DNA of 64,000 bases from positions 124,001-188,000 of the forward strand of contig NC_011832.1 in assembly GCF_000021965.1 (NCBI RefSeq), in the 5' to 3' direction. Position 1 is the stretch's first letter, and every line of letters begins with the position of its first letter. The notes beneath the pieces are model-generated. The model was not told the origin of the DNA and ran no database searches. It saw only the letters and a program-made list of their open reading frames with translations. Below are positions 14,554 through 33,547 of the stretch, in pieces. This stretch comes from Methanosphaerula palustris E1-9c (lineage in GTDB: Archaea; Halobacteriota; Methanomicrobia; Methanomicrobiales; Methanospirillaceae). The position numbers and the translations under genes were made by a program.

Positions 14554-14620
14554 TCTGGGATACACTTCGAAAGGCCGGGATCACAGAGGGCTTATGCCCG
14601 TGTACCACCAATACTCTCTC

Positions 14621-15970
14621 ATGAAATGTATCATCCTTGCAGGGGGTTCAGGGACCCGGCTCTGGCCGCTATCAAGGGTTCAGTTCCCCAAACAGTTCTT
14701 GAAGATCGGTGACCACTCGCTCTTTCAGGCCACCTGGCTGCGAGCCCGGAAGCTGGCGTCCGCCGACGAGATCTATGTGGTGACCAACGAGGCCCACCAG
14801 TACCTGGTCAACAACCAGCTCGAGGAGGTCGGGGCCACCCTCGACCCTGCTCATCTGCTCAGGGAGCCCTGCGGCAGGAACACGCTGCCGGCGATCGCCT
14901 GGGCGATGGCGACGATCCGGGCCGAATGCGGTGATGCCATCGCCGTGGTCTTCCCGAGCGATCACCATCTGGATGAGGCGGCCCTGCAGGAGATCGAGGC
15001 GGCCGTTCCGCTGGCCGAGGACCACCTGGTCACCTTCGGGGTGAAGCCGGACTGTCCGCACACCGGGTACGGGTATATCCGCCCCGGCGCCCCGCTGGTC
15101 TGCGGGTCGGCGGTCGACTCCTTCAAGGAGAAGCCCGATAAGGAGACCGCTGAGGGTTACTGCCAGGCCGGTTACCTCTGGAACTCGGGGATGTTCCTCC
15201 TCCGAACGACGATCTTCTTCGAGGAGCTTGAACGGTATCAGCCGGCGATGGCCGCGGCCTTCGCCGCCGGGGTGCCGGAGGAGTACGCTGCCCTCCAGAA
15301 CCTCTCGATCGATTACGGGCTGCTTGAGGTCTCCGAGCGGGTCGCCGTGGTCCCGCTGGACTGCGCCTGGTCGGACATGGGGGACTTCAAGGCTCTGTAT
15401 GATCATGCAGCCCACGACCCGAAAGGGAATGCAGGGAAGGCCGAGTACATCGATGCGACCGGTAACTATGTGCATGCGAAGGGGAAGGCGATCGGCCTGA
15501 TCGGCGTGAACAACCTGGCGGTCGTCGACACCGGGGATGCGCTGCTCGTCTGCGCCAAGGATCAGACCGACAAGGTCCGGGACCTGGTGGCCCGGTTCAA
15601 GGGGCAGCAGAACGCGATCACCGAGCATCACCTCGAGGAGCATCGTCCCTGGGGATCTTATAAGGTCCTTGAGACCGGGCCGTTCTACAAGATCAAGCGG
15701 GTCACGGTCAGCCCGGGCAAGTGGCTCTCGCTTCAGCTCCACTGCCACCGGTCCGAGCACTGGATCGTCGTCAGCGGGATGGCCGAGGTGCATCTGAACG
15801 GTGACACCCAATTCCTCTGCCAGGGGCAGTCCACCTTCGTCACCACCGGCTCTCGACACCGGCTCGGCAACCCGGGCCGGATTCCGCTTGAGGTGATCGA
15901 GGTGCAGATCGGCGAGTACCTGGAAGAGGATGATATCGTCCGGTTCGAGGACAAGTACGGTCGGGCCTAG
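14621..15970 (+). CDS. manC: Mannose-1-phosphate guanylyltransferase / mannose-6-phosphate isomerase
   Basis: A 449-residue bifunctional enzyme making GDP-mannose for glycans. The nucleotidyltransferase signature CIILAGGSGTRLWPLSR opens the protein, followed by FPKQF and the VFPSDHH and EKPD motifs. The C-terminal cupin (RPWGSYKVLETG, then LHCHRSEHWIVVSG) is the isomerase part. An upstream in-frame ATG at 14594 would add nine residues; 14621 is preferred because family homology starts there. GDP-mannose would feed surface glycosylation, which fits the sequon-rich protein and lipid-carrier genes nearby. Confidence 0.9.
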   Translation: MKCIILAGGSGTRLWPLSRVQFPKQFLKIGDHSLFQATWLRARKLASADEIYVVTNEAHQYLVNNQLEEVGATLDPAHLLREPCGRNTLPAIAWAMATIRAECGDAIAVVFPSDHHLDEAALQEIEAAVPLAEDHLVTFGVKPDCPHTGYGYIRPGAPLVCGSAVDSFKEKPDKETAEGYCQAGYLWNSGMFLLRTTIFFEELERYQPAMAAAFAAGVPEEYAALQNLSIDYGLLEVSERVAVVPLDCAWSDMGDFKALYDHAAHDPKGNAGKAEYIDATGNYVHAKGKAIGLIGVNNLAVVDTGDALLVCAKDQTDKVRDLVARFKGQQNAITEHHLEEHRPWGSYKVLETGPFYKIKRVTVSPGKWLSLQLHCHRSEHWIVVSGMAEVHLNGDTQFLCQGQSTFVTTGSRHRLGNPGRIPLEVIEVQIGEYLEEDDIVRFEDKYGRA

Positions 15971-18606: not shown

Positions 18607-18647
18607 CAGGGGCTGCGCGCTGAGTAAATAACCGTTATTGGCCCCTG
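18607..18647 (+). other. Inverted repeat downstream of copA
   Basis: Seven-base perfect arms (CAGGGGC at 18607-18613, GCCCCTG at 18641-18647) are separated by 27 bases. It lies in the 265-bp gap after copA, which otherwise shows only the promoter of the next gene. It may be a transcript-end structure. Confidence 0.3.
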
Positions 18648-18809
18648 TTTCACCGAAAGGCGTGCTTGTTCGCGCCGGCTTCCGGTCCTATGGCCGAGAT
18701 AAAATCTATAGTTGTTCCTGGAAATCTATAAATGTACGGCGGGATTTGACCCCCGCATATAAACCATGCCCGCAATCTTTCGATCAGATGGGTGAATCCA
18801 GTCACAATC

Positions 18810-18838: not shown

Positions 18839-19963
18839 ATGAAGTTTGGCAAGCATCTCATAGTGCTCTTACTCCTCTCGCTCTTCTGCATTGCATCAGC
18901 AAGCGCAGTAGGGACTGGCACCTTCTCGATCTCCAATGTCGGGAACGTATCAGTCGGAGAGACAGGCGTAGCAACAGTCTCTGTAAACAACAACTGGAAC
19001 CCCAACTTTGGGGACACGTATGTCTACGTCACGTTCGATCCAACTGCGATCGAGTTCGTCAGCTCGACCATCAAGGTCCCGAGCAACACCACCGATGTAA
19101 CACTTGTCGGGAGCGGCAAGGTTCAGATCTCCCTGGGAGACTTCAAGCACGGATACCCGGCCGGCAGCTACCCACTCGCTGAGCTCACCTTCAAGCAGCT
19201 CAAGAGCGGGATCAACCCCATGACCGTCACCATCGACCATGTCCGGTACTGGTCCTCTGACCTGACGACCTTCACCGACATCACCGATTCGGCATCTGCA
19301 GTCAGCGGCGTCTTCTCCACCGGAGCAGTCGCAGCCTCGGTCATCCCCGGCATGAACAATACCACCGCGTTCCTTGCAGCCAATGGGACTGCAGTCGGTT
19401 ACGTCATCCCGAACCTGACCAACGTGACGGTGACTCCGACGTATACGATCGTGAACATCACAAACGTCACCACTCTTGTTACCGTCAACCCGAACGTGAC
19501 CTATGTGATCCCAACACCGTATTCCCAGAGCAACTATGCAGGCAGCGATGACTATACCGGTGTCGGCGCAAAGAACGCGACCGCAACCCAGACACCTGCC
19601 GTCAACGTCACCCTCAATGCAACCGCCAACAAGACAGTAATCAACGCAACTGCCAACAAGACAGCACTCAATGCAACTGCCAACGCAACTGCACTCAATG
19701 CAACCATCAACAAGACTGTGCTCAACGCAACTGCCAACGCATCTGCGCTCAATGCAACAGTCAATGCATCTGCAATCAACGCGACCATCACCACGACTGC
19801 GAACGCAACCAACGTGACCGTTCAGAAGACGATCGTCTCCAATGCGAGCACCTCAGCACCTAACGCGACTGCAACCCAGAAGTCCGGAATGGCCGGTGGC
19901 CTCCTCTCTCTGGTTGCGCTCGGTGGTGTTGGTCTGCTGCTGATTGCACGCAGAAACAACTGA
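18839..19963 (+). CDS. Secreted cohesin-like surface protein with sequon-rich stalk and C-terminal anchor
   Basis: A 374-residue protein. Residues 1-23 are a signal peptide (HLIVLLLLSLFCIASASA). About 25-165 form a beta-rich domain that resembles cohesin/dockerin-associated folds (GDTYVYVTFDPTAIEFV, AELTFKQL). Residues 170-355 are dominated by N-X-T/S sequons, including seven tandem nine-residue units. The end is a hydrophobic helix followed by RRNN (LLSLVALGGVGLLLIARRNN), similar to archaeal cell-surface sorting or anchoring tails. It is probably a heavily N-glycosylated envelope protein. The start is fixed by a TATA-like box 25 bases upstream. Confidence 0.75.
   Translation: MKFGKHLIVLLLLSLFCIASASAVGTGTFSISNVGNVSVGETGVATVSVNNNWNPNFGDTYVYVTFDPTAIEFVSSTIKVPSNTTDVTLVGSGKVQISLGDFKHGYPAGSYPLAELTFKQLKSGINPMTVTIDHVRYWSSDLTTFTDITDSASAVSGVFSTGAVAASVIPGMNNTTAFLAANGTAVGYVIPNLTNVTVTPTYTIVNITNVTTLVTVNPNVTYVIPTPYSQSNYAGSDDYTGVGAKNATATQTPAVNVTLNATANKTVINATANKTALNATANATALNATINKTVLNATANASALNATVNASAINATITTTANATNVTVQKTIVSNASTSAPNATATQKSGMAGGLLSLVALGGVGLLLIARRNN
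19613..19801 (+). repeat. Seven tandem 27-bp coding repeats (sequon array)
   Basis: Seven consecutive 27-base units each encode nine residues of the form [ALIV][LI]NAT-x-N-x-[TS]. The first six units carry two N-glycosylation sequons each; the last is degenerate. Units differ at many third positions, so the array is conserved at the protein level rather than freshly duplicated. Confidence 0.85.
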
Positions 19964-19992: not shown

Positions 19993-20041
19993 TGCTCAAC
20001 AGTTCCAGTCTGTATTGTATATCCATGATCATGTGGGGGAG

Positions 20042-20899
20042 ATGGTGAGTATCAGAGAAGTTGCCGCACGGAAGAGTCGACACCTGGTGAGAAACCGGGA
20101 GTGGGTGCAGGGTGAGCAGCTGATCGCGGTGGTCTGTAAGGATCAGGCACTCACGATTGGATCTCAGGTCCTGCTTGCAGCCAAGAACGGGGATCGGGTG
20201 ATCGTCTATGACCTGACGTCGACCGATGAGACGGCCAGGATCGCTGCTGAGGCTGGTGCAGAGGTGATCATCTGCACCAGTCCCGGGGAGGCGCTGGTCA
20301 GGGCCTCGAATGAGGCGGCCTCAGCCGGTGCTGGAGTGATCGTGGTGCTTGCAGGGCTGCTCTATCTCTTCCCTGAACAGGGGCTCGCGGTTTTGAGCAC
20401 AGCCATGTCCAGCAAAGGGGCCGACTGTGCGATGGTCGAAGGGCCGGCGCCTGCCCAGATCGAGGGATGGCGTGCGCTGATCCTCCTCTCTGCAGCCGCA
20501 GCCGCAGTGATCGGCTCCAGCGCCCCGCAACCGACCGCCCTGGCGGTCAGCAAACTGGTGGAACGGGCCGGTCTGAATGTATATCTGCACCATTCCGACG
20601 AGCAGGCGATAGGATCGTCCCGGATACCGCGGTCTGAGAAGCTGATCAAAGTCAAAATGCTCGCCCGGGACCTGCTCTTCTTCGCGCATCCAGTCCCTTC
20701 ATACCTGCTCTATGGAACGGTGATGCTGGTTGTCGGCCTCCTCTCCCTCTCTGCCGGCCGGTTCCTCTTCACCCTCCCCGGCTCTGTCGGCCTGGCCCTG
20801 CTCGGCGCCGGCCTTTTCGTCGCAGCACTTGGGCTTGTGCTGCTGACTGCGGCCCTGCTGATCAACTCGCTGGTCATGATCCCCCGGGAGTGCCGCTGA
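20042..20899 (+). CDS. GT-A-like membrane protein
   Basis: A 285-residue protein. Residues 25-200 resemble the nucleotide-binding half of family 2 glycosyltransferases (VCKDQALTIGSQVLLAAKNG, then DLTSTDETARIAAEAGAEVI), but no clear DxD or acceptor motif is visible. The C-terminal 75 residues hold two membrane helices (YLLYGTVMLVVGLLSLSAG and a long LLGAGLFVAALGLVLLTAALL). It may be an inactive or specialised relative of dolichyl-phosphate sugar transferases. A TATA-like TGTATAT at 20014-20020 supports a leaderless start at 20042. The neighbouring glycoprotein suggests a surface role, which is inference. Confidence 0.55.
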   Translation: MVSIREVAARKSRHLVRNREWVQGEQLIAVVCKDQALTIGSQVLLAAKNGDRVIVYDLTSTDETARIAAEAGAEVIICTSPGEALVRASNEAASAGAGVIVVLAGLLYLFPEQGLAVLSTAMSSKGADCAMVEGPAPAQIEGWRALILLSAAAAAVIGSSAPQPTALAVSKLVERAGLNVYLHHSDEQAIGSSRIPRSEKLIKVKMLARDLLFFAHPVPSYLLYGTVMLVVGLLSLSAGRFLFTLPGSVGLALLGAGLFVAALGLVLLTAALLINSLVMIPRECR

Positions 20900-23707: not shown

Positions 23708-23791
23708 GGAGGAATCTTATGATAATTCAGTGGGAATGCCTCTCTGTCGATTCTGATACCGGGGGTGTGGGCCTTCTGCCAGGAGATGAAG

Positions 23792-24649
23792 ATGCGCAGG
23801 CTTGATCTCATACTCGTGGCAGACGAGCCCTTTGAGATCCCTCTTCATGAAGGGTATCAACTCTACTCAGCCCTCCTGGGACTCATGAAGGGATCGTCTC
23901 CGAACGTCAGTCAGCGGGTTCATGACTCGCCCATCTCATCCTTCTCGCTTGGAGGATTCAAAGGTCCCTTTCAACAGACTGACAGCGCGAACCGCAAACG
24001 TGTGATTCCCAACCAACCCTACCACCTCCGGATCGGCATTACAGACCCGCGCGACGAAGAGATCCTTCATCATCTGGCAATGCCGTTCATCCTGGGACAC
24101 AGGGTGCTTTCTCTCGACCAGGGCGATTTCAATGTCGTGCATATCGAAGATCAGAGCGTCTCGATCGACGACTGGGTGCATCAGAATCGGAATTATACCC
24201 GACCCCTGCTCGAGTTCAACTTTGAAACCGTGACCTGCATCCAGTACCGGAACAGCACGGTAACTGAGATGTATCCGAATCGAATCGCAGTCTTCAACTC
24301 CATCCTCTCAAAGTGGAATCGAGTTTTCCCCAACGAGAATCGACTGGATGCCAGCCGTGATGACTTCGGCAGATATCTGGTGGAACGGCCGAACTTCTTC
24401 AACCTCGCCACCTACAGCGTACTGACGAACACAGTCACAGATCAGAAAAAAAGGCTAAATAAACCCATATTTAAGCAGGGCTTCGTCGGTCCGTGCCGGT
24501 ATTCCTTCACCACAAACACCCCAGAGTGGTTCAGAACCACCATTCTCCTCCTCTCCCGCTTTGCCGAGTATTCAGGCGTCGGTTCGGGTGTGGCCCGGGG
24601 ATATGGACAGGTGAAGGTCACGGTCCAGGGTGGTGCCAATGAGGAGTGA
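23792..24649 (+). CDS. cas6: CRISPR-associated endoribonuclease Cas6
   Basis: A 285-residue protein of the RAMP superfamily that cuts the CRISPR transcript within repeats to make crRNAs. The C-terminal glycine-rich loop is clear (GVGSGVARGYGQVKV). The N-terminal RRLDLILVADEPFEIPLHEG is the first RAMP strand. The ATG at 23792 has an AGGAG six bases upstream; the one at 23786 abuts it, so 23792 is preferred. The gene is first in the cassette, before cas10d, whereas in the type I-D loci I know cas6 follows csc1. The cas10d gene follows after 13 bases. Confidence 0.88.
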   Translation: MRRLDLILVADEPFEIPLHEGYQLYSALLGLMKGSSPNVSQRVHDSPISSFSLGGFKGPFQQTDSANRKRVIPNQPYHLRIGITDPRDEEILHHLAMPFILGHRVLSLDQGDFNVVHIEDQSVSIDDWVHQNRNYTRPLLEFNFETVTCIQYRNSTVTEMYPNRIAVFNSILSKWNRVFPNENRLDASRDDFGRYLVERPNFFNLATYSVLTNTVTDQKKRLNKPIFKQGFVGPCRYSFTTNTPEWFRTTILLLSRFAEYSGVGSGVARGYGQVKVTVQGGANEE

Positions 24650-24662
24650 CGGGAGTACCTCC

Positions 24663-27600
24663 ATGCAGGAGCAGGTGGAGACACTCCAGAGGACAACCGG
24701 GCGTAGGATCCCCTCGTACCGAGCGTTGACGGATTATTTCACGATGGTCGACCTGGCGATTGCTGCTTCCCCGTACGCTCTTCTCCCTGCGAAGAACGTG
24801 GAATTCGGGAGAGTCGATCAACCGATGCTGAATCACATCCGCAACGGTGTCTGTGCTATGGTCGAACTGAACGAAGTACTTCTTACCCTCAAATCCTCTG
24901 CAGCCCTCTCTGAGGCCGGGGTGCGAGAGGCGGTCGCCCTCTTTGCGGTCCATAATCTCCACCAGTGCATCGATCGGGACCGGAAGGAGCAGACCAATAC
25001 CCCGGCTGCGTTTGTAGAGACGATCGCGGATGAGTTCGGGCTCGCTGCGTATGCTCCCACCCTGACCCCTGCAGATTATCGAGCCGTCTCTGTCGCGCTC
25101 CAAAGCGCTCGAGGCGATCCTGCCGGGATGTCGCGAAAGGGTGCTGACCTTCTCCGATGGCTCAAATTCGCGGAGACCCTGGCCGGCCAGATGAGTTCCT
25201 CGGTCACCACCTCGATGCGCACGGCGCTTGAGGCGATAGATCCCGGACTGGCCTTCTCGTATCACCGGTTCCAGGAGCCGATCGGGATCCTCACGAACCT
25301 GGTGCACACGGGAGTGTCTGCATGGATGGGGCAGAAGGGGGTATATCCCCTCCTCGTCTTCGAGACCGGCGTGCTTTACATCGGCCCCCATGATGTCGAG
25401 CCCGGTGCCCTGGACTTGGAGGCGGTGATGCAGATCTATCGCGAGTTCGAGCATGTGCTCAACTCCTGCCATGCTGCAATCTCTGATCCCAGGGAATTCT
25501 CCAGGAGTATCTCCGTTCAGGGTACCAAGGGACTCTACTCGGCGGAAGATGCCTCCTTCTTCTACTCGGGGATTCCGACGGTGATCAAGGGGTTCATGGC
25601 CGCGGCTGTACTGCGGGAAGAGGCGAAGAACAGGACGATCGAGATCGATCTGGTGGAACCCTCCCTCCTTGTCAAGAAAGCGAACCTCGAGATGCAGCAT
25701 CCGCCGGCAACGGTCATCGACATCCTCAGAGCCTTCGTCACCAGGGTTGTGATCGACGGCCAGGCCAGAGAACCTGGCGACATCCGGATCGTGTGTCGAC
25801 CGCACTCTGTGGATCAGAAGAAGTACGTGCTCCTTCCCGAATCGGTGCTGATCGATGGCCGTCCTGTCGAGGGAACGCAGTTCTCGATCGAAGGTACCGG
25901 TCTCCTGCCAAGCCAGGTGGGATATCGGCATCACCTCAAGGAGGACTTTGGGATCGATATCGGATGGGAGGCCGGCGTCATCTCCTATGCCCGGGCTGTC
26001 GCAGGGCTGCGAAGAGCGATCATCGTTCCGCTTGCAGCGGTCGGAGCGCTCTCCACGACCGACCCGGTCCTCGAGACCTGCCGGCTCTTCCAGATCGACG
26101 AGGATCTGGCCAGGCGTATGGCGGAGTACGCTCGCGACCACCGGGGCAACGACCATCATACCGTCGGGGGGTACTGGAACTACGGGTACGCCATAGCCCG
26201 TGCCCTGCTGGATCATGAGGTTAACGGCGTTCGTTTCAGGGACCTGACGCCCGACCGGAAGATTGAGTATCTGGAATCCCTGACCGATGCATTTCTCTCG
26301 GGGATCTCGACAGAAGCACTGGACTCCTTCAGGTCAAAACTTCTCTATCCCTACCAGGAGAAACTCCTCGTCTGGTTCTCTGAGAACCTGAACCTGAACG
26401 GTTCGATAGCCTATGGGATCTTCGAGAATAAGATCTCGAAATTCGGTGCGTACTGCCGTGGCAGGGGGATCTGCCGACTGACCGGGGACGCTCCCTTCGA
26501 CAATGAGGAGAAGGTTCCCTCGAGGGATGCCTCCATGCTCGGCTTCTCGTTCTCGAACAGGGGTTTGATCGGGGGAGCCGAGCCTAAACTCTCCGTATCA
26601 GTGCCGGTCGAGGTCGAACTGGGTCTGCGCGAGATCGGCCACCAGATCAGGAAAGGATCGGACAAACTCTACTTTCGGCTGATCCCGGACTCCTTTCACA
26701 CGCCCCTCATGACGCGGATCCTCTCGGACCTGCTCAGCCGGTTTAATACGGGGGCTCTGACGAATGTCCGGGCCCTGGCCCTGCGGGTGCTGGACGGTAC
26801 TGCGCTCGACCCCGCTGCACTGGCACAGGAGTTCTTCGCTGAGAGCGGCGGCCGGTCTCTCTTCAGGTATACGGCCACCGGATTCACTGGCTGCAATTCC
26901 ACCCTTTACGCAACGTACGATCTGGTCTTCAAGAAGGTGAAAGAGAACGAGACCGAGTTCTGGTTCTTCGGTGCGTACCTGGGTATGCTGCTCGCGGCCG
27001 CCACAGGGTGCCGGGTGGTGGTGGGTGACAACCCGATCTGCATGACGAGCGGCAACCAGTTCTGCGGGATGGTCCATCTCGAGGCGCTTCCTGCTGCGGT
27101 CAAGCATCTCTTTGGGGATACCATTCGGCTCTCCACGCTCCCTCTTGTTCTCAGGAGAGCTTCGCTCCTCGTGGTGCTCGGGTATGAGTACAGACCATAT
27201 AACAGAATCGAGGATAGGTACTTTTCGAAACATCTGCAGACGATTCGAAATCGGGCTTGTCCCGGGAGTACCCTTCTCAAGCAACTCTGGAGGATGAATT
27301 CGCGGAAGGATGCGAAGAAGAGGGTGCAGAGCCGGCCGACCCTGCTCCTCGAGTGGGCACTCGAACTTGATTGGATCGCAGGTGATCAGATGACAATCCA
27401 GACACTTCATGAACTGGCTCTTCTTGGGATGGACGTTGCCGTCCCGAAGGGATATGAACCGTATAAACTCGAACACCTCTTCCGGGAGGCGGTCAGGGCC
27501 ATCCTCACACGGGGAACTCAGCAGTATCAACGCGAAGACTACGTCGACGCGGTGATGGGCCGATTGTTGAAGATGATGAAGCGGGCCGGGGAGCATCAGT

Positions 27601-27851
27601 TCTACGGTCTCAATGGACAATCTCATTCAGAATCGACATTGAGGTTTGCCGAGGCCTTCGTCGACCATGTCTTCTACGGGCTCTTCGATGGCAATCCAGG
27701 AAAGTTGAAACGGGCAGAGAACGACCTCGCCGACGGGTATTATGCGGCCACGCTTCAACTGCGCAATCAGATGTACGCCGGGAAGAAGACGGGCCTGTCG
27801 GTCGAATCATCCAACGCGGGGAACCAGACCGCATCTGAGGGTGGATATTGA
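24663..27851 (+). CDS. cas10d: Type I-D CRISPR large subunit Cas10d (Csc3)
   Basis: A 1062-residue protein, the large subunit of the type I-D effector. Family identity rests on its size, the conserved block VVVGDNPICMTSGNQF in the palm-like region, and its place before csc2-csc1. The N-terminal HD nuclease domain normally has a His-Asp pair. Here the motif reads AVHNLHQ (H97-N98), so the metal-binding Asp is Asn. A first histidine is present at H58. The zinc-ribbon region (CRGRGICRLTGD) shows only one Cys pair. An ATG at 24639 is also in frame; 24663 is preferred because GGGAG lies seven bases upstream. An internal start probably yields Cas11d. Confidence 0.85.
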   Translation: MQEQVETLQRTTGRRIPSYRALTDYFTMVDLAIAASPYALLPAKNVEFGRVDQPMLNHIRNGVCAMVELNEVLLTLKSSAALSEAGVREAVALFAVHNLHQCIDRDRKEQTNTPAAFVETIADEFGLAAYAPTLTPADYRAVSVALQSARGDPAGMSRKGADLLRWLKFAETLAGQMSSSVTTSMRTALEAIDPGLAFSYHRFQEPIGILTNLVHTGVSAWMGQKGVYPLLVFETGVLYIGPHDVEPGALDLEAVMQIYREFEHVLNSCHAAISDPREFSRSISVQGTKGLYSAEDASFFYSGIPTVIKGFMAAAVLREEAKNRTIEIDLVEPSLLVKKANLEMQHPPATVIDILRAFVTRVVIDGQAREPGDIRIVCRPHSVDQKKYVLLPESVLIDGRPVEGTQFSIEGTGLLPSQVGYRHHLKEDFGIDIGWEAGVISYARAVAGLRRAIIVPLAAVGALSTTDPVLETCRLFQIDEDLARRMAEYARDHRGNDHHTVGGYWNYGYAIARALLDHEVNGVRFRDLTPDRKIEYLESLTDAFLSGISTEALDSFRSKLLYPYQEKLLVWFSENLNLNGSIAYGIFENKISKFGAYCRGRGICRLTGDAPFDNEEKVPSRDASMLGFSFSNRGLIGGAEPKLSVSVPVEVELGLREIGHQIRKGSDKLYFRLIPDSFHTPLMTRILSDLLSRFNTGALTNVRALALRVLDGTALDPAALAQEFFAESGGRSLFRYTATGFTGCNSTLYATYDLVFKKVKENETEFWFFGAYLGMLLAAATGCRVVVGDNPICMTSGNQFCGMVHLEALPAAVKHLFGDTIRLSTLPLVLRRASLLVVLGYEYRPYNRIEDRYFSKHLQTIRNRACPGSTLLKQLWRMNSRKDAKKRVQSRPTLLLEWALELDWIAGDQMTIQTLHELALLGMDVAVPKGYEPYKLEHLFREAVRAILTRGTQQYQREDYVDAVMGRLLKMMKRAGEHQFYGLNGQSHSESTLRFAEAFVDHVFYGLFDGNPGKLKRAENDLADGYYAATLQLRNQMYAGKKTGLSVESSNAGNQTASEGGY
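27390..27851 (+). CDS. Probable Cas11d small subunit from an internal start in cas10d
   Basis: An in-frame ATG (MTIQTLHELALLGMDV) at 27390 is preceded at 27380-27387 by AGGTGATC, complementary to the expected archaeal 16S 3' end, with two bases between. The product would be 153 residues, mostly helical. Internal translation of the small subunit from cas10d is established for type I-D systems; its use here is inferred from the Shine-Dalgarno and length. The same AGGTGATCC string precedes the M50 protease gene of this window. Confidence 0.6.
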   Translation: MTIQTLHELALLGMDVAVPKGYEPYKLEHLFREAVRAILTRGTQQYQREDYVDAVMGRLLKMMKRAGEHQFYGLNGQSHSESTLRFAEAFVDHVFYGLFDGNPGKLKRAENDLADGYYAATLQLRNQMYAGKKTGLSVESSNAGNQTASEGGY

Positions 27852-29905: not shown

Positions 29906-31612
29906 TTAAAAAGCGTAGGATCGGCCACCGAAGCCGCCCCAGGATGAGCCGATCGCCGTGGCCCTGAATGAGGAGGTCGACGTCGTCACCTGCAGTTTGT
30001 TCAGCCCTCCACTCTGGAATGCAGATGCACCCCCAAAGGTTCCAAACCCACCGGAGGAGAACCCGGTCCCTTTTCCAATTGAACTCCAGGGATCACTGCT
30101 CGTCGAGACCTGAGTCACGACTGGAGTCGCGGTCGCCACCGGTGTTGTGGTTGCGACGATCGTCACCGGGGTGGTGCTGACCGCCACCACCGAGCCGGTC
30201 ACATAGACCGGCGGGACCGTGGCCGCGATGATATCAGCTGGCATCGTCGGTAGCTGGTCAGCGGATGCCGTCTTCAGCGAGTAGGTGTTGCCGCTGCCGT
30301 CCTTGTTGATGATCGGTAGGGATGAACCGTAGGCCGTGATGTCAAACGAGGAGCCCTCGACCGGCAGTTCGTACTGCGGCTGGCTGTAGTAGTAACCGAG
30401 ATTGTCCTGGTACCCGCTCTCTCCGGCGGCGTTCGCTTGGAAGAAGTTCTTCACCTGGAGGTTCTTGGTGAACGCAGACCACAGAGCCCATCCCTTGTCG
30501 TTCCGTGCCTGGCAGTTGTTCAGGGTGATATCGGCGCATCCCTTGACGATCTTGAACCCGTAGGTCGAGCCCTGGTCGACGCAGTTGTTGAAGGTCGTGT
30601 TCAACCCGTCGTGGACGAAGAACCCGGCGTTCTTGTTGTTGACCGAGATGCAGTTGTTGAGGATCGCATTCCGGTGTATGTAGTAGCCTGAGACGAAGAC
30701 ATCATGATAGGGCGCCTGGGCCGGGTTGCGCTGTCCGTTGTTCCTGCTGACGCAGTTGTTGAGGACGACGTTCTTGGTGTTCAGATACCCCGGCTCGAAG
30801 TGGAACCCGTTCTCCCAGTTGTCCTCGGCGAGGCAGTTGTCCATCTCGACGTTCTGCAGGTCGTTGTCCTCCTGGATGTCGAACCCGGTCGCGAACTCCG
30901 AGCTCGAGCCGTCAGGGACCCCAAACCCGCACCTGACCGCCTGACAGTTGATGAACTTCAGGTTGCTGATCGCATAACTGCCTGAACCGACTCTGGTCCC
31001 GTCCTGCATTGTGGACCGGTTGGCGTTCATGTTGAAGCCGTGGGTGTTGCAGTCGATCGCCTTGCAGTTCTGGAAGGTGATCTCCCCGGTGTGGTCGTTG
31101 TCCACCCAGATGAAGAACATCCCGTTGCCACCTGAGGGGTATCGTATGCCGTTAGCTCCGATCGAGGTGGCTGTGATGTCCTGGAGGGTGACGTGGTTAG
31201 TTCGGATCAGAAAAAACCCCTCGCCGCGGAGGGTGAACCCCTTCACCAGCACGTTGTCCTGGTAGATATGGATCGGCTGATAGGGGTCGACCGCGTTGTA
31301 GACATCGATCGTCGTTTTATCCTCGCCGGCCCCCAGGAACTGCGAGTTCGCCGTCGGATAGATCCAGCCAGAACTGTGGAAGGTCCCCTCGGTCAGTTGC
31401 ACGATCCCACCCTCTGCTGGGAGCATGTTGAAGGCATTGTTGATCTCGATCTGGTCATCGACACCATCGCAGAAGACCTGTGCGGTCTCCTTCGAGGTCT
31501 GACTGGCATCAGCCGCTGCGACGACGACCGTGGCGGTCGCTGCTACACTCTGGATCAGACAGAGCACCAGCAGCGCCCCGATGATCACCTCTATTCCCCA
31601 TTTACCTCTCAT
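29906..31612 (-). CDS. Secreted parallel beta-helix protein A with Gly/Phe-rich C-terminus
   Basis: A 568-residue protein. A signal peptide covers about residues 1-25 (VIIGALLVLCLIQSVAA). From 30 to about 420 it is a right-handed parallel beta-helix with regularly spaced cysteines and asparagine ladders (GFNMNANR, FHFEPGYLNTK, GYYIHRNAILNNC). A Val/Thr/Ala-rich linker follows, then a Ser/Gly/Phe tail ending in GSSWGGFGGRSYAF. It is closely similar to the next gene and related to the one at 1396. It is probably a surface or secreted polysaccharide-binding protein or lyase; no catalytic residue can be assigned. The start at 31612 matches that of the paralogue. Confidence 0.78.
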   Translation of the reverse strand: MRGKWGIEVIIGALLVLCLIQSVAATATVVVAAADASQTSKETAQVFCDGVDDQIEINNAFNMLPAEGGIVQLTEGTFHSSGWIYPTANSQFLGAGEDKTTIDVYNAVDPYQPIHIYQDNVLVKGFTLRGEGFFLIRTNHVTLQDITATSIGANGIRYPSGGNGMFFIWVDNDHTGEITFQNCKAIDCNTHGFNMNANRSTMQDGTRVGSGSYAISNLKFINCQAVRCGFGVPDGSSSEFATGFDIQEDNDLQNVEMDNCLAEDNWENGFHFEPGYLNTKNVVLNNCVSRNNGQRNPAQAPYHDVFVSGYYIHRNAILNNCISVNNKNAGFFVHDGLNTTFNNCVDQGSTYGFKIVKGCADITLNNCQARNDKGWALWSAFTKNLQVKNFFQANAAGESGYQDNLGYYYSQPQYELPVEGSSFDITAYGSSLPIINKDGSGNTYSLKTASADQLPTMPADIIAATVPPVYVTGSVVAVSTTPVTIVATTTPVATATPVVTQVSTSSDPWSSIGKGTGFSSGGFGTFGGASAFQSGGLNKLQVTTSTSSFRATAIGSSWGGFGGRSYAF

Positions 31613-31780
31613 CCTCTCCACCTCTCTGATTGGAAACCCGACCGGCAAGGCCGGCTGTAGGATCCTCATAATTAATTCTCTCTTTGCACTGCACCTACAT
31701 AATCTGATCGACGTATAACACTGCGCCGAAGCCCTCCTGATACTCTCGGCTATGCCGTAAGTGAGTCCATCTGAAGGATG

Positions 31781-31796
31781 GAAAAAAACTAAAAAA
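31781..31796 (-). terminator. Double U-run terminator after the second beta-helix gene
   Basis: Two A-runs (A7 at 31782-31788, A6 at 31791-31796) are U-runs on the minus strand, about 45 bases past the stop at 31841. A short CCATC/GATGG stem lies beyond them. Confidence 0.5.
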
Positions 31797-31840
31797 GGGT
31801 ATGAGAGATTTTGGTCTTGTTCTGGGGAACAGGATCCAGT

Positions 31841-33547
31841 TTAGAACCCGAAGGTTCTGCCAGTGAAGCCGCCCCACGTCGAGCCGATCGAAGCGGCAAT
31901 GGACTGGGAGGATGACACCGCGACCCCGAGTGCATTCCCTCCACTCTGGAAGGACGAGGAACTGCCGAAGGACCCGAAACCGCTTGACGTGGAGCCGAAC
32001 GACTTCCCGAATCCACTCCAGCCGTCAGAGGTCGTCGTGGTTGTCTGGGTCGCTGCCGGTGCCACAGTGGTCGCCACTGCTACAACCTGCGATACCTGGG
32101 TGGCACCCTGCGTGGTCGCCGAGTACCCGGTCACATAGACCGCTGGCACCGTGGCCGCTGTGATATCAGTCACGGTCGGCACCTGGTCAGCGGATGCTGT
32201 TTTCAGCGAGTAGGTGTTGCCATTGCCGGCCTCGTTGATGATCGGCAGAGATGAACCGAAGGCGGTGATGTCAAAGTTCGAATTCGTGGTCGAGAACTCA
32301 TACTTTGGGCTGCCATAGTAGAACCCAATGTTGTCCTGGTATCCGCTCTTACCGCCGGCATTGGCCTGGAAGAAGTTCTTGACCGTAACCTTGTCTGAGA
32401 ATGCAGTCCAGAATGCCCACGCCTTTTCGTTCCGTCCCTGGCAGTTGTTCAGGGTGATATCTGAACTCCCCTTGACGATCTTGAACCCGTACGTCGACCC
32501 GATGTCGACGCAGTTGTTGAAGGTCGTGTTGGAACCGTCGTGGGTGAAGAACCCTGCGTTCTTGTTGTTGATCGCCACGCAGTTGTTCAGGATCGCATTC
32601 CGGTGGATGTAATACCCTGATACGAAGACATCGTTGAAGGGTTCCACAGCCGGGTTGCGCTGCCCGTTGTTCCTGCTGACGCAGTTGTTGAGGACGACGT
32701 TCTTGGTCCCCAGGTAGCCGGGCTCGAAGTGGAACCCGTTCTCCCAGTTGTCCTCGGCGAGGCAGTTATCCATCTCGACGTTCTGCAGGTCGTTGTCCTC
32801 CTGGATATCGAACCCGGTTGCGAACTCCGAACTGGATCCGTCAGCAACACCGTACCCGCACCGGATCGCCTGGCAGTTGACGAACTTCAGGTTGCTGATT
32901 GCATAACTGTTGGTTCCGGTCCTGGTCCCGGTCGAATTGATACCCGTATCCCGGTTGGCGTTCATGTTGAAGCCGTGGGTGTTGCAGTCGATCGCCTTGC
33001 AGTTCTGGAAGGTGATATCCCCGGTATAATTGTTATCCACCCAGATGAAGAACATCCCGTTGCCGCCGGATGGTTTACGAACGCCGTCAGCCCCGATGGA
33101 GGTGGCTGTGATGTCCTGGAGGGTGACATGGTTGGTCCTGATCAAGAAGAACCCCTCACCACGGAGGGTGAACCCCTTGATCAGCACGTTGTCCTGCTGC
33201 ACATGGATCGGCTGGTAGGCATCGGTCGCATTATAGACATCGATGGTCGTCTTGTCCTCGCCTGAACCCAAAAACTGCGAGTTTTGACTTGGATAGATCC
33301 AGCCAGAACTGTGGAAGGTTCCCTCCGTCAGCTGCACAATTCCACCCTCCGCCGGGAGCCGGTTGAACGCTTCATTGATCCATGCCTGATCATTCGTGCC
33401 CGGACAGACGATCTGGGCGGCTGCCTTGGAGGCCGGGCTTGCATCTGCTGCTGCCACGACGATCGTCGTGGTTGCGGCCACTGTCTGGATCAGACAGAGC
33501 AACAACAGTGCCCCGATGATCATCTGTATCCCAATCTTACCTTTCAT
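31841..33547 (-). CDS. Secreted parallel beta-helix protein B with Gly/Phe-rich C-terminus
   Basis: A 568-residue protein, the same length as its neighbour and nearly identical through the beta-helix (GEGFFLIRTNHVTLQDITAT, FATGFDIQEDNDLQNVEMDN). The signal peptide is MKGKIGIQMIIGALLLLCL. Differences concentrate in the Thr/Ala linker and in the tail, which again ends in an aromatic-glycine motif (GSTWGGFTGRTFGF). The pair is a tandem duplication on the same strand, with 228 bases between. Its own promoter probably lies in 33548-33620, where a CTATAG/TATTTG TATA-like stretch is read on the minus strand. Confidence 0.78.
   Translation of the reverse strand: MKGKIGIQMIIGALLLLCLIQTVAATTTIVVAAADASPASKAAAQIVCPGTNDQAWINEAFNRLPAEGGIVQLTEGTFHSSGWIYPSQNSQFLGSGEDKTTIDVYNATDAYQPIHVQQDNVLIKGFTLRGEGFFLIRTNHVTLQDITATSIGADGVRKPSGGNGMFFIWVDNNYTGDITFQNCKAIDCNTHGFNMNANRDTGINSTGTRTGTNSYAISNLKFVNCQAIRCGYGVADGSSSEFATGFDIQEDNDLQNVEMDNCLAEDNWENGFHFEPGYLGTKNVVLNNCVSRNNGQRNPAVEPFNDVFVSGYYIHRNAILNNCVAINNKNAGFFTHDGSNTTFNNCVDIGSTYGFKIVKGSSDITLNNCQGRNEKAWAFWTAFSDKVTVKNFFQANAGGKSGYQDNIGFYYGSPKYEFSTTNSNFDITAFGSSLPIINEAGNGNTYSLKTASADQVPTVTDITAATVPAVYVTGYSATTQGATQVSQVVAVATTVAPAATQTTTTTSDGWSGFGKSFGSTSSGFGSFGSSSSFQSGGNALGVAVSSSQSIAASIGSTWGGFTGRTFGF

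Follow-up and report, generated by a model that had tools for sequence, protein, structure and literature searches.

The gene described here probably specifies a receptor that serves as an anchor at the cell surface in a non-cellulosomal cohesin/dockerin system. It lies in a stretch of 64,000 nucleotides from Methanosphaerula palustris E1-9c, which is called the window below. Its product belongs to the known cohesin proteins but has an unusual stalk, in which potential N-glycosylation sites (sequons) follow each other at very short distances. The features of the gene and of the encoded protein are collected in Table 1.

Table 1. Features of the cohesin gene and its product, in window coordinates
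Feature	Position	Strand	Basis or remark
Whole gene, ATG start, 374 aa + stop	18839..19963	+	putative membrane-anchored cohesin receptor
Predicted signal peptide, residues 1-24	18839..18910	+	sequence; AlphaFold helix 4-16
Cohesin domain, residues 26-166	18914..19336	+	AlphaFold pLDDT ~80-94; VIA; sub-threshold PF00963 match
NTT sequon at residue 83, within the cohesin domain	19085..19093	+	invariant in the subgroup's compared domains
Disordered stalk, residues 167-353 (~187 residues), 27 sequons	19337..19897	+	pLDDT ~30
DDYTGV motif inside the stalk, common to other cohesin-family members	19547..19564	+	sequence
Tandem sequon array, 7 x 27 bp, 13 sequons	19613..19801	+	repeat units read in frame
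Hydrophobic membrane-anchor helix at the C-terminus, residues 355-372, followed by RRNN (Arg/Asn tail)	19901..19954	+	AlphaFold helix

AlphaFold, run with ten family members, predicts a confident beta domain (residues 26-166), a disordered segment (167-354) and a C-terminal helix (355-372), with the disorder of the middle segment being weak evidence given 10 input sequences whose stalks are not homologous. This layout agrees with the initial annotation, which had placed a dense sequon stalk between a cohesin-like domain and a C-terminal anchor. The open reading frame list offers a TTG start at 18638, which is less likely than the ATG at 18839 because the signal peptide (MKFGKHLIVLLLLSLFCIASASA) begins at the ATG. 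Direct Pfam and NCBIfam scans of the 374-aa protein matched no family. A PGF-CTERM motif was sought before the C-terminal helix, with no match to PF18204 or TIGR04126 at E values up to 1; archaeosortase A is nevertheless encoded in the genome. A TATA-box-like element (CATATAAA) was spotted by eye at 18755-18763, ~80 bp before the start codon. Many such anchored proteins carry the short conserved motif (D/E)xYTG(V/A) in a disordered segment before the stalk, among them this protein (19547-19564) and those of L002, L003, L018, L020, L028, L030, L041, L042, L049, L050 and L054:3478-4464.

With VIA, the predicted N-terminal domain aligns to a Clostridium acetobutylicum cohesin of type I (6kgc) over 128 residues at 1.7 A with a Z score of 17.2, and to the archaeal cohesin of Archaeoglobus fulgidus (2xdh) with a Z score of 15.9. 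Nearly all rows of the VIA alignment are cohesin modules and Foldseek agrees, so that the "cohesin-like domain" of the initial annotation is borne out: the modelled residues 26-166 form a cohesin fold, a jelly-roll beta-sandwich. The best structural matches share only 11-20% sequence identity with the domain. A sequence search against the PDB returned Neurotrimin (E 0.4), a chance match, and the cohesin fold is seen by structure only. The Pfam cohesin profile PF00963 matches the domain with an E value of 0.005 and 18.2 bits, under the curated cut-off of 24.1, which is a recognition threshold rather than a defining property of the fold. Over the whole genome, this profile matches only the window gene and its paralogues, one of which (L005) passes with 34 bits. 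The residues N83, T84 and T85 are invariant in the 7 compared cohesin-domain sequences of the subgroup. With one cohesin the window protein is not a multi-cohesin scaffoldin; its paralogue L003 has two.

Since the tip of the protein is a cohesin, the genomes were searched for dockerins. The M. palustris genome holds 32 Dockerin_1 matches, most of them over the cut-off, and the sister-genus genomes G004, G019, G027 and G035 hold 31, 16, 18 and 22, respectively, as against 0-13 in 42 other genomes. At least 15 matches are thus found in 5/5 genomes with the cohesin family and in 0/42 of the others (P 6.5e-7, ignoring kinship), a co-occurrence that does not amount to five independent events, as four of the five genomes come from one genus. 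Twenty-five dockerin frames were read, one of which is a short fragment after start choice; in 23 of the remaining 24, the tag forms the last 52-54 residues. Nearly all of the tagged proteins read display an N-terminal hydrophobic segment and none a C-terminal helix. A common pattern, YEDxNGxGxxDFxDVVLFFNQMDWIxxNEPxxxFDFNxNGxIDFxDxxxLF, is followed by 22 tags, and the payloads include CBM6/CBM35, a GDSL lipase, NHL propellers, PKD domains and beta-helices. Searching with a profile built from the tags recovers isolated relatives where the window cohesin family is missing as well; hence, judged from these sequences, the pairing of cohesin and dockerin is not exclusive. Many dockerin and cohesin proteins occur in ANME archaea, and binding between archaeal cohesins and dockerins has reportedly been verified. 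Presence in genomes alone leaves the implications of archaeal dockerins and cohesins not clear (PMC9012536).

The stalked domain might instead act as a surface adhesin that binds an external ligand, such as a partner cell or a polymer, rather than dockerins. The CLIPPER domain of a fibrillar adhesin (9ifr) does match the fold with a Z score of 12.2, which is a weaker match than that of true cohesins (Z 16-17). Together with the abundance of dockerins in the same genome, this makes the adhesin reading unlikely.

The initial annotation had placed seven 27-bp tandem units at 19613-19801; the position proves exact and the units lie in the frame of the plus-strand open reading frame, with Tandem Repeats Finder reporting periods of 27, 54 and 81 bp over the array. 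The units read LNATANKTV, INATANKTA, LNATANATA, LNATINKTV, LNATANASA, LNATVNASA and INATITTTA. Two sequons per nine residues, as originally described, hold for six of the seven units, which follow the pattern [LI]NAT-x-N-x-[TS]; the seventh has lost its second Asn and retains one sequon, leaving 13 rather than 14 in the 63 array residues. Of these, 11 are NxT and 2 are NxS, and their spacing alternates between 4 and 5 residues (~1 per 4.8 residues). When the 63 residues were shuffled 10,000 times, 3.3 +/- 1.4 sequons were obtained with a maximum of 9; the sequon density of the array is not due to chance. The same excess extends over the tail as a whole (residues 167-352), where shuffling leaves 7.3 +/- 2.1 sequons against the 27 observed. 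Within residues 173-352, 27 of 29 Asn belong to sequons, and the non-repeated stalk on both sides of the array is likewise filled with them. In comparison with the dense O-glycosylated Ser/Thr/Pro repeats of a mucin-like domain, the repeats are rich in Thr, but the stalk contains only 7 Pro among 180 residues. An antisense open reading frame of 86 aa, rich in Ala, Val and Leu (19552-19812, minus strand), is most likely a by-product of the repeat codon pattern.

The array repeats strictly every 9 residues and places a hydrophobic residue between its sequons, as might also be expected of an ordered repeat stalk (a helix or solenoid), in which the Asn/Thr pattern would be structural and not directed at glycosylation. 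The low AlphaFold confidence over the stalk, with the weakness already described, points away from such order. Moreover, the period is not common to all other sequon stalks of the genome, a propeller protein having a period of 17 residues, and an ordered stalk is therefore considered very improbable.

Comparison of the repeat units with each other offers a further level of detail. Among units 1-6, pairwise differences in the Asn codons are 13 synonymous and 0 nonsynonymous. The T/S codons display a dN/dS of 0.21, with changes that are silent or from Thr to Ser only, and the remaining codons a dN/dS of 1.13; such unit-against-unit figures are descriptive, as repeat units are not independent lineages, but the columns differ clearly from each other. 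When the consensus was mutated at random and without constraint, with as many changes as observed, ~5.8 of 14 sequons survived, and 13 were never reached in 5,000 runs. Because the Asn codons differ silently only and other positions drift freely, the sequons of the array appear to be kept by purifying selection, as the initial annotation had proposed from the silent-site variation.

These figures also bear on another account of the array, namely that replication slippage expanded a NAT-encoding 27-bp unit by chance and left sequons without function. The array is indeed a tandem DNA repeat, and low-complexity linkers diverge fast in the cohesin family. However, the Asn codons of units 1-6 differ by many silent changes and by zero replacements. 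Sequons dominate the non-repeated stalk just as much, and other stalks of the genome, built from different repeats and without convincing DNA similarity in their arrays, share the same property. Functionless slippage is thus regarded as highly unlikely.

The relatives of the cohesin domain display quite different linkers. Ten cohesin-family loci were found in GTDB contigs. Further members in the same genome (G000:C1) lie at 1570761, 205522-206784 (two domains), 2725406 and 1067587, and the four sister-genus genomes named above hold several members each. Nearly all family members whose C-termini were read finish in a hydrophobic helix that carries Arg/Lys. In the domain tree, the window domain falls near the paralogues L002 and L003, and no strict orthologue of the window protein was identified in this tree. 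The linkers of nearly all these relatives, among them two close paralogues and the sister-genus proteins, are Thr/Pro-rich, with 0-9 sequons over the whole protein. The array itself was sought in 232 genomes of the class, with a match to the window gene only. A scan of 61 genomes for sequons in the strict 4/5/4 pattern gave a match in the M. palustris genome only. As far as the sequences of the relatives go, the array therefore belongs to the window gene and not to the cohesin family and, being absent from all relatives, its sequons are not essential to the function of that family. The conservation of sequons among orthologues, on which the initial annotation had staked its proposal, accordingly fails for every family member found. 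In one sister-genus genome, a cohesin-like domain is fused directly to a DUF3821 S-layer domain (L022, G027:C18:1-2129); the S-layer itself may display cohesins in that case, a fusion that supports surface display.

Sequon-rich stalks are found elsewhere in the M. palustris genome. In 464 kb sampled from it, exported-like open reading frames carry 1.82 sequons per 100 aa, ~6 times the 0.31 of the others, and eight frames, including the window gene, reach at least 6 sequons per 63 aa. Among them are a lipoprotein phosphatase (12 per 63 aa, in a stalk after the lipobox whose array likewise repeats every 27 bp), a beta-propeller protein (11 per 63 aa, in a stalk of 51-bp period before the C-terminal helix), a MEMAR_RS02690-type S-layer glycoprotein (9 per 63 aa, dense at both ends) and a solute-binding lipoprotein (8 per 63 aa). 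The DNA of the array was compared with that of the other sequon stalks, with no convincing match within the arrays. Such frames number six over 320 kb of this genome, whereas four related genomes yield three over 1,600 kb (P ~0.001); two pairs of frames lie together in a 20-kb stretch, so that the frames are not fully independent. The window was left out of this rate comparison, as were L059, L062, L063 and L071, four of the twenty stretches sampled from this genome, which had been chosen in the knowledge that a paralogue or the second sequon site lay inside. Dockerin-tagged proteins of the same genome, for which no membrane stalk is needed, in contrast reach at most 6 sequons per 63 aa, and this difference between anchored and tagged proteins supports a juxtamembrane spacer role of the sequon stalks. 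As other anchored proteins of the genome have sequon-dense stalks of their own, these stalks look like a lineage habit. One further exported protein (L066:5148-5969), with repeats of ~72/153 bp, holds 20 sequons per 273 aa and combines His-rich (GHGHAHG), possibly metal-binding, segments with sequon segments.

The initial annotation had suggested a mucin-like coat, that is, a protein that mainly carries a dense shielding glycan layer and to which the cohesin is incidental. Very dense sequons under selection would suit such a coat, as would the dense sequons of several other exported proteins. However, a stalk, here just one part of a single-domain receptor, does not amount to a coat, the paralogues keep the cohesin and change the type of stalk, and a dockerin repertoire is present in the genome. 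The separately encoded S-layer glycoprotein of the MEMAR_RS02690 family is also the likelier coat. As originally worded, this interpretation finds no support here and is held to be quite unlikely.

The genome encodes a single AglB/STT3 oligosaccharyltransferase (PF02516, over the cut-off) with a WWDYG motif. For the preferred reading, a cohesin receptor, we hypothesize that this one enzyme glycosylates many of the stalk sequons and that the crowded glycans would stiffen, extend and protect the stalk as an N-linked bottlebrush. The stalk would lift the cohesin through or beyond the S-layer, where the cohesin would hold dockerin-tagged exoproteins at the cell surface. Duplications of 27 bp might offer a cheap way of stalk lengthening, in which Asn and Thr/Ser are kept and the residues between them drift. 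One mammalian oligosaccharyltransferase skips closely spaced NXS sites (PMC4750078) and, by analogy, some of the sequons here, which lie 4-5 residues apart, may be passed over. A bolder proposal is that this lineage has swapped the Thr/Pro-rich juxtamembrane spacer usual in archaeal surface proteins for N-glycan bottlebrush stalks, the N-linked equivalent of stalks in mucins. These would be made of tandem hNxT units, occupied by AglB at 4-5-residue spacing, that have expanded independently in several anchored proteins unrelated to one another. We hold this to be a tentative idea, with the balance somewhat against it. No direct precedent for archaeal tandem stalks of such sequon density came up in a search of the literature. 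If glycosylated at the spacing of the array, the stalk would rank with the densest N-glycan arrays of which we are aware and would test the limit of an archaeal oligosaccharyltransferase on neighbouring sites. The cohesin and the dockerins would together form a compact archaeal display system in a methanogen lineage, with a uniform tag on >20 exported proteins and a handful of receptors.

Several neighbouring genes of the window were read along with the cohesin gene. The product of the downstream gene (20039-20899) is GT2-like and has two hydrophobic segments at its C-terminal end. It appears to lack a normal DxD motif, and its similarity to AglJ and glucosyl-3-phosphoglycerate synthase is only weak (E 0.0003-0.07). 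A fusion of mannose-1-phosphate guanylyltransferase and mannose-6-phosphate isomerase, possibly supplying glycan precursors, is encoded 3 kb upstream (14600-15970). Further along lie a Cas6 gene (PF10040) followed by a gene for a 1073-aa protein without a Pfam match (23765-27851) and, on the minus strand, two adjoining genes for similar exported right-handed beta-helix proteins (29906-33547).

The closest known systems are the archaeal non-cellulosomal cohesins, namely that of Archaeoglobus fulgidus and the ANME cohesin/dockerin proteins (PMC9012536), which resemble the window protein in fold, in archaeal host, in the many dockerin proteins per genome and in having no link to a cellulosome. 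They differ from the window protein, which presents a membrane-anchored single cohesin on a sequon-saturated stalk in a genome with uniform C-terminal dockerin tags. The anchoring scaffoldins of bacteria, surface proteins of clostridial cellulosomes, share the type I cohesin fold, the stalk and the surface anchor; there the anchor is an SLH or sortase anchor, whereas here it is a C-terminal membrane helix and the payloads, as far as read, are not cellulases. Archaeal S-layer glycoproteins with PGF-CTERM (Methanospirillum hungatei, haloarchaea) also place a disordered spacer between folded extracellular domains and a C-terminal membrane anchor. In M. hungatei, a Pro-rich spacer of 50 residues and a PGF-CTERM domain tie the S-layer protein to the membrane (PMC11641113), and a disordered region rich in Thr takes up the spacer position in many S-layer proteins of archaea (PMC8559796). 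The window protein, in contrast, has an N-x-T-rich spacer with neither PGF-CTERM nor DUF3821. Finally, SlaA of Sulfolobus acidocaldarius is a heavily N-glycosylated archaeal surface protein, with confirmed glycans at 27/31 predicted sites (PMC10903991), a property that the window stalk would share if glycosylated as proposed. Its predicted sites are spread over folded domains at one per ~46 residues, as compared with one per ~4.8 in the disordered array described here.
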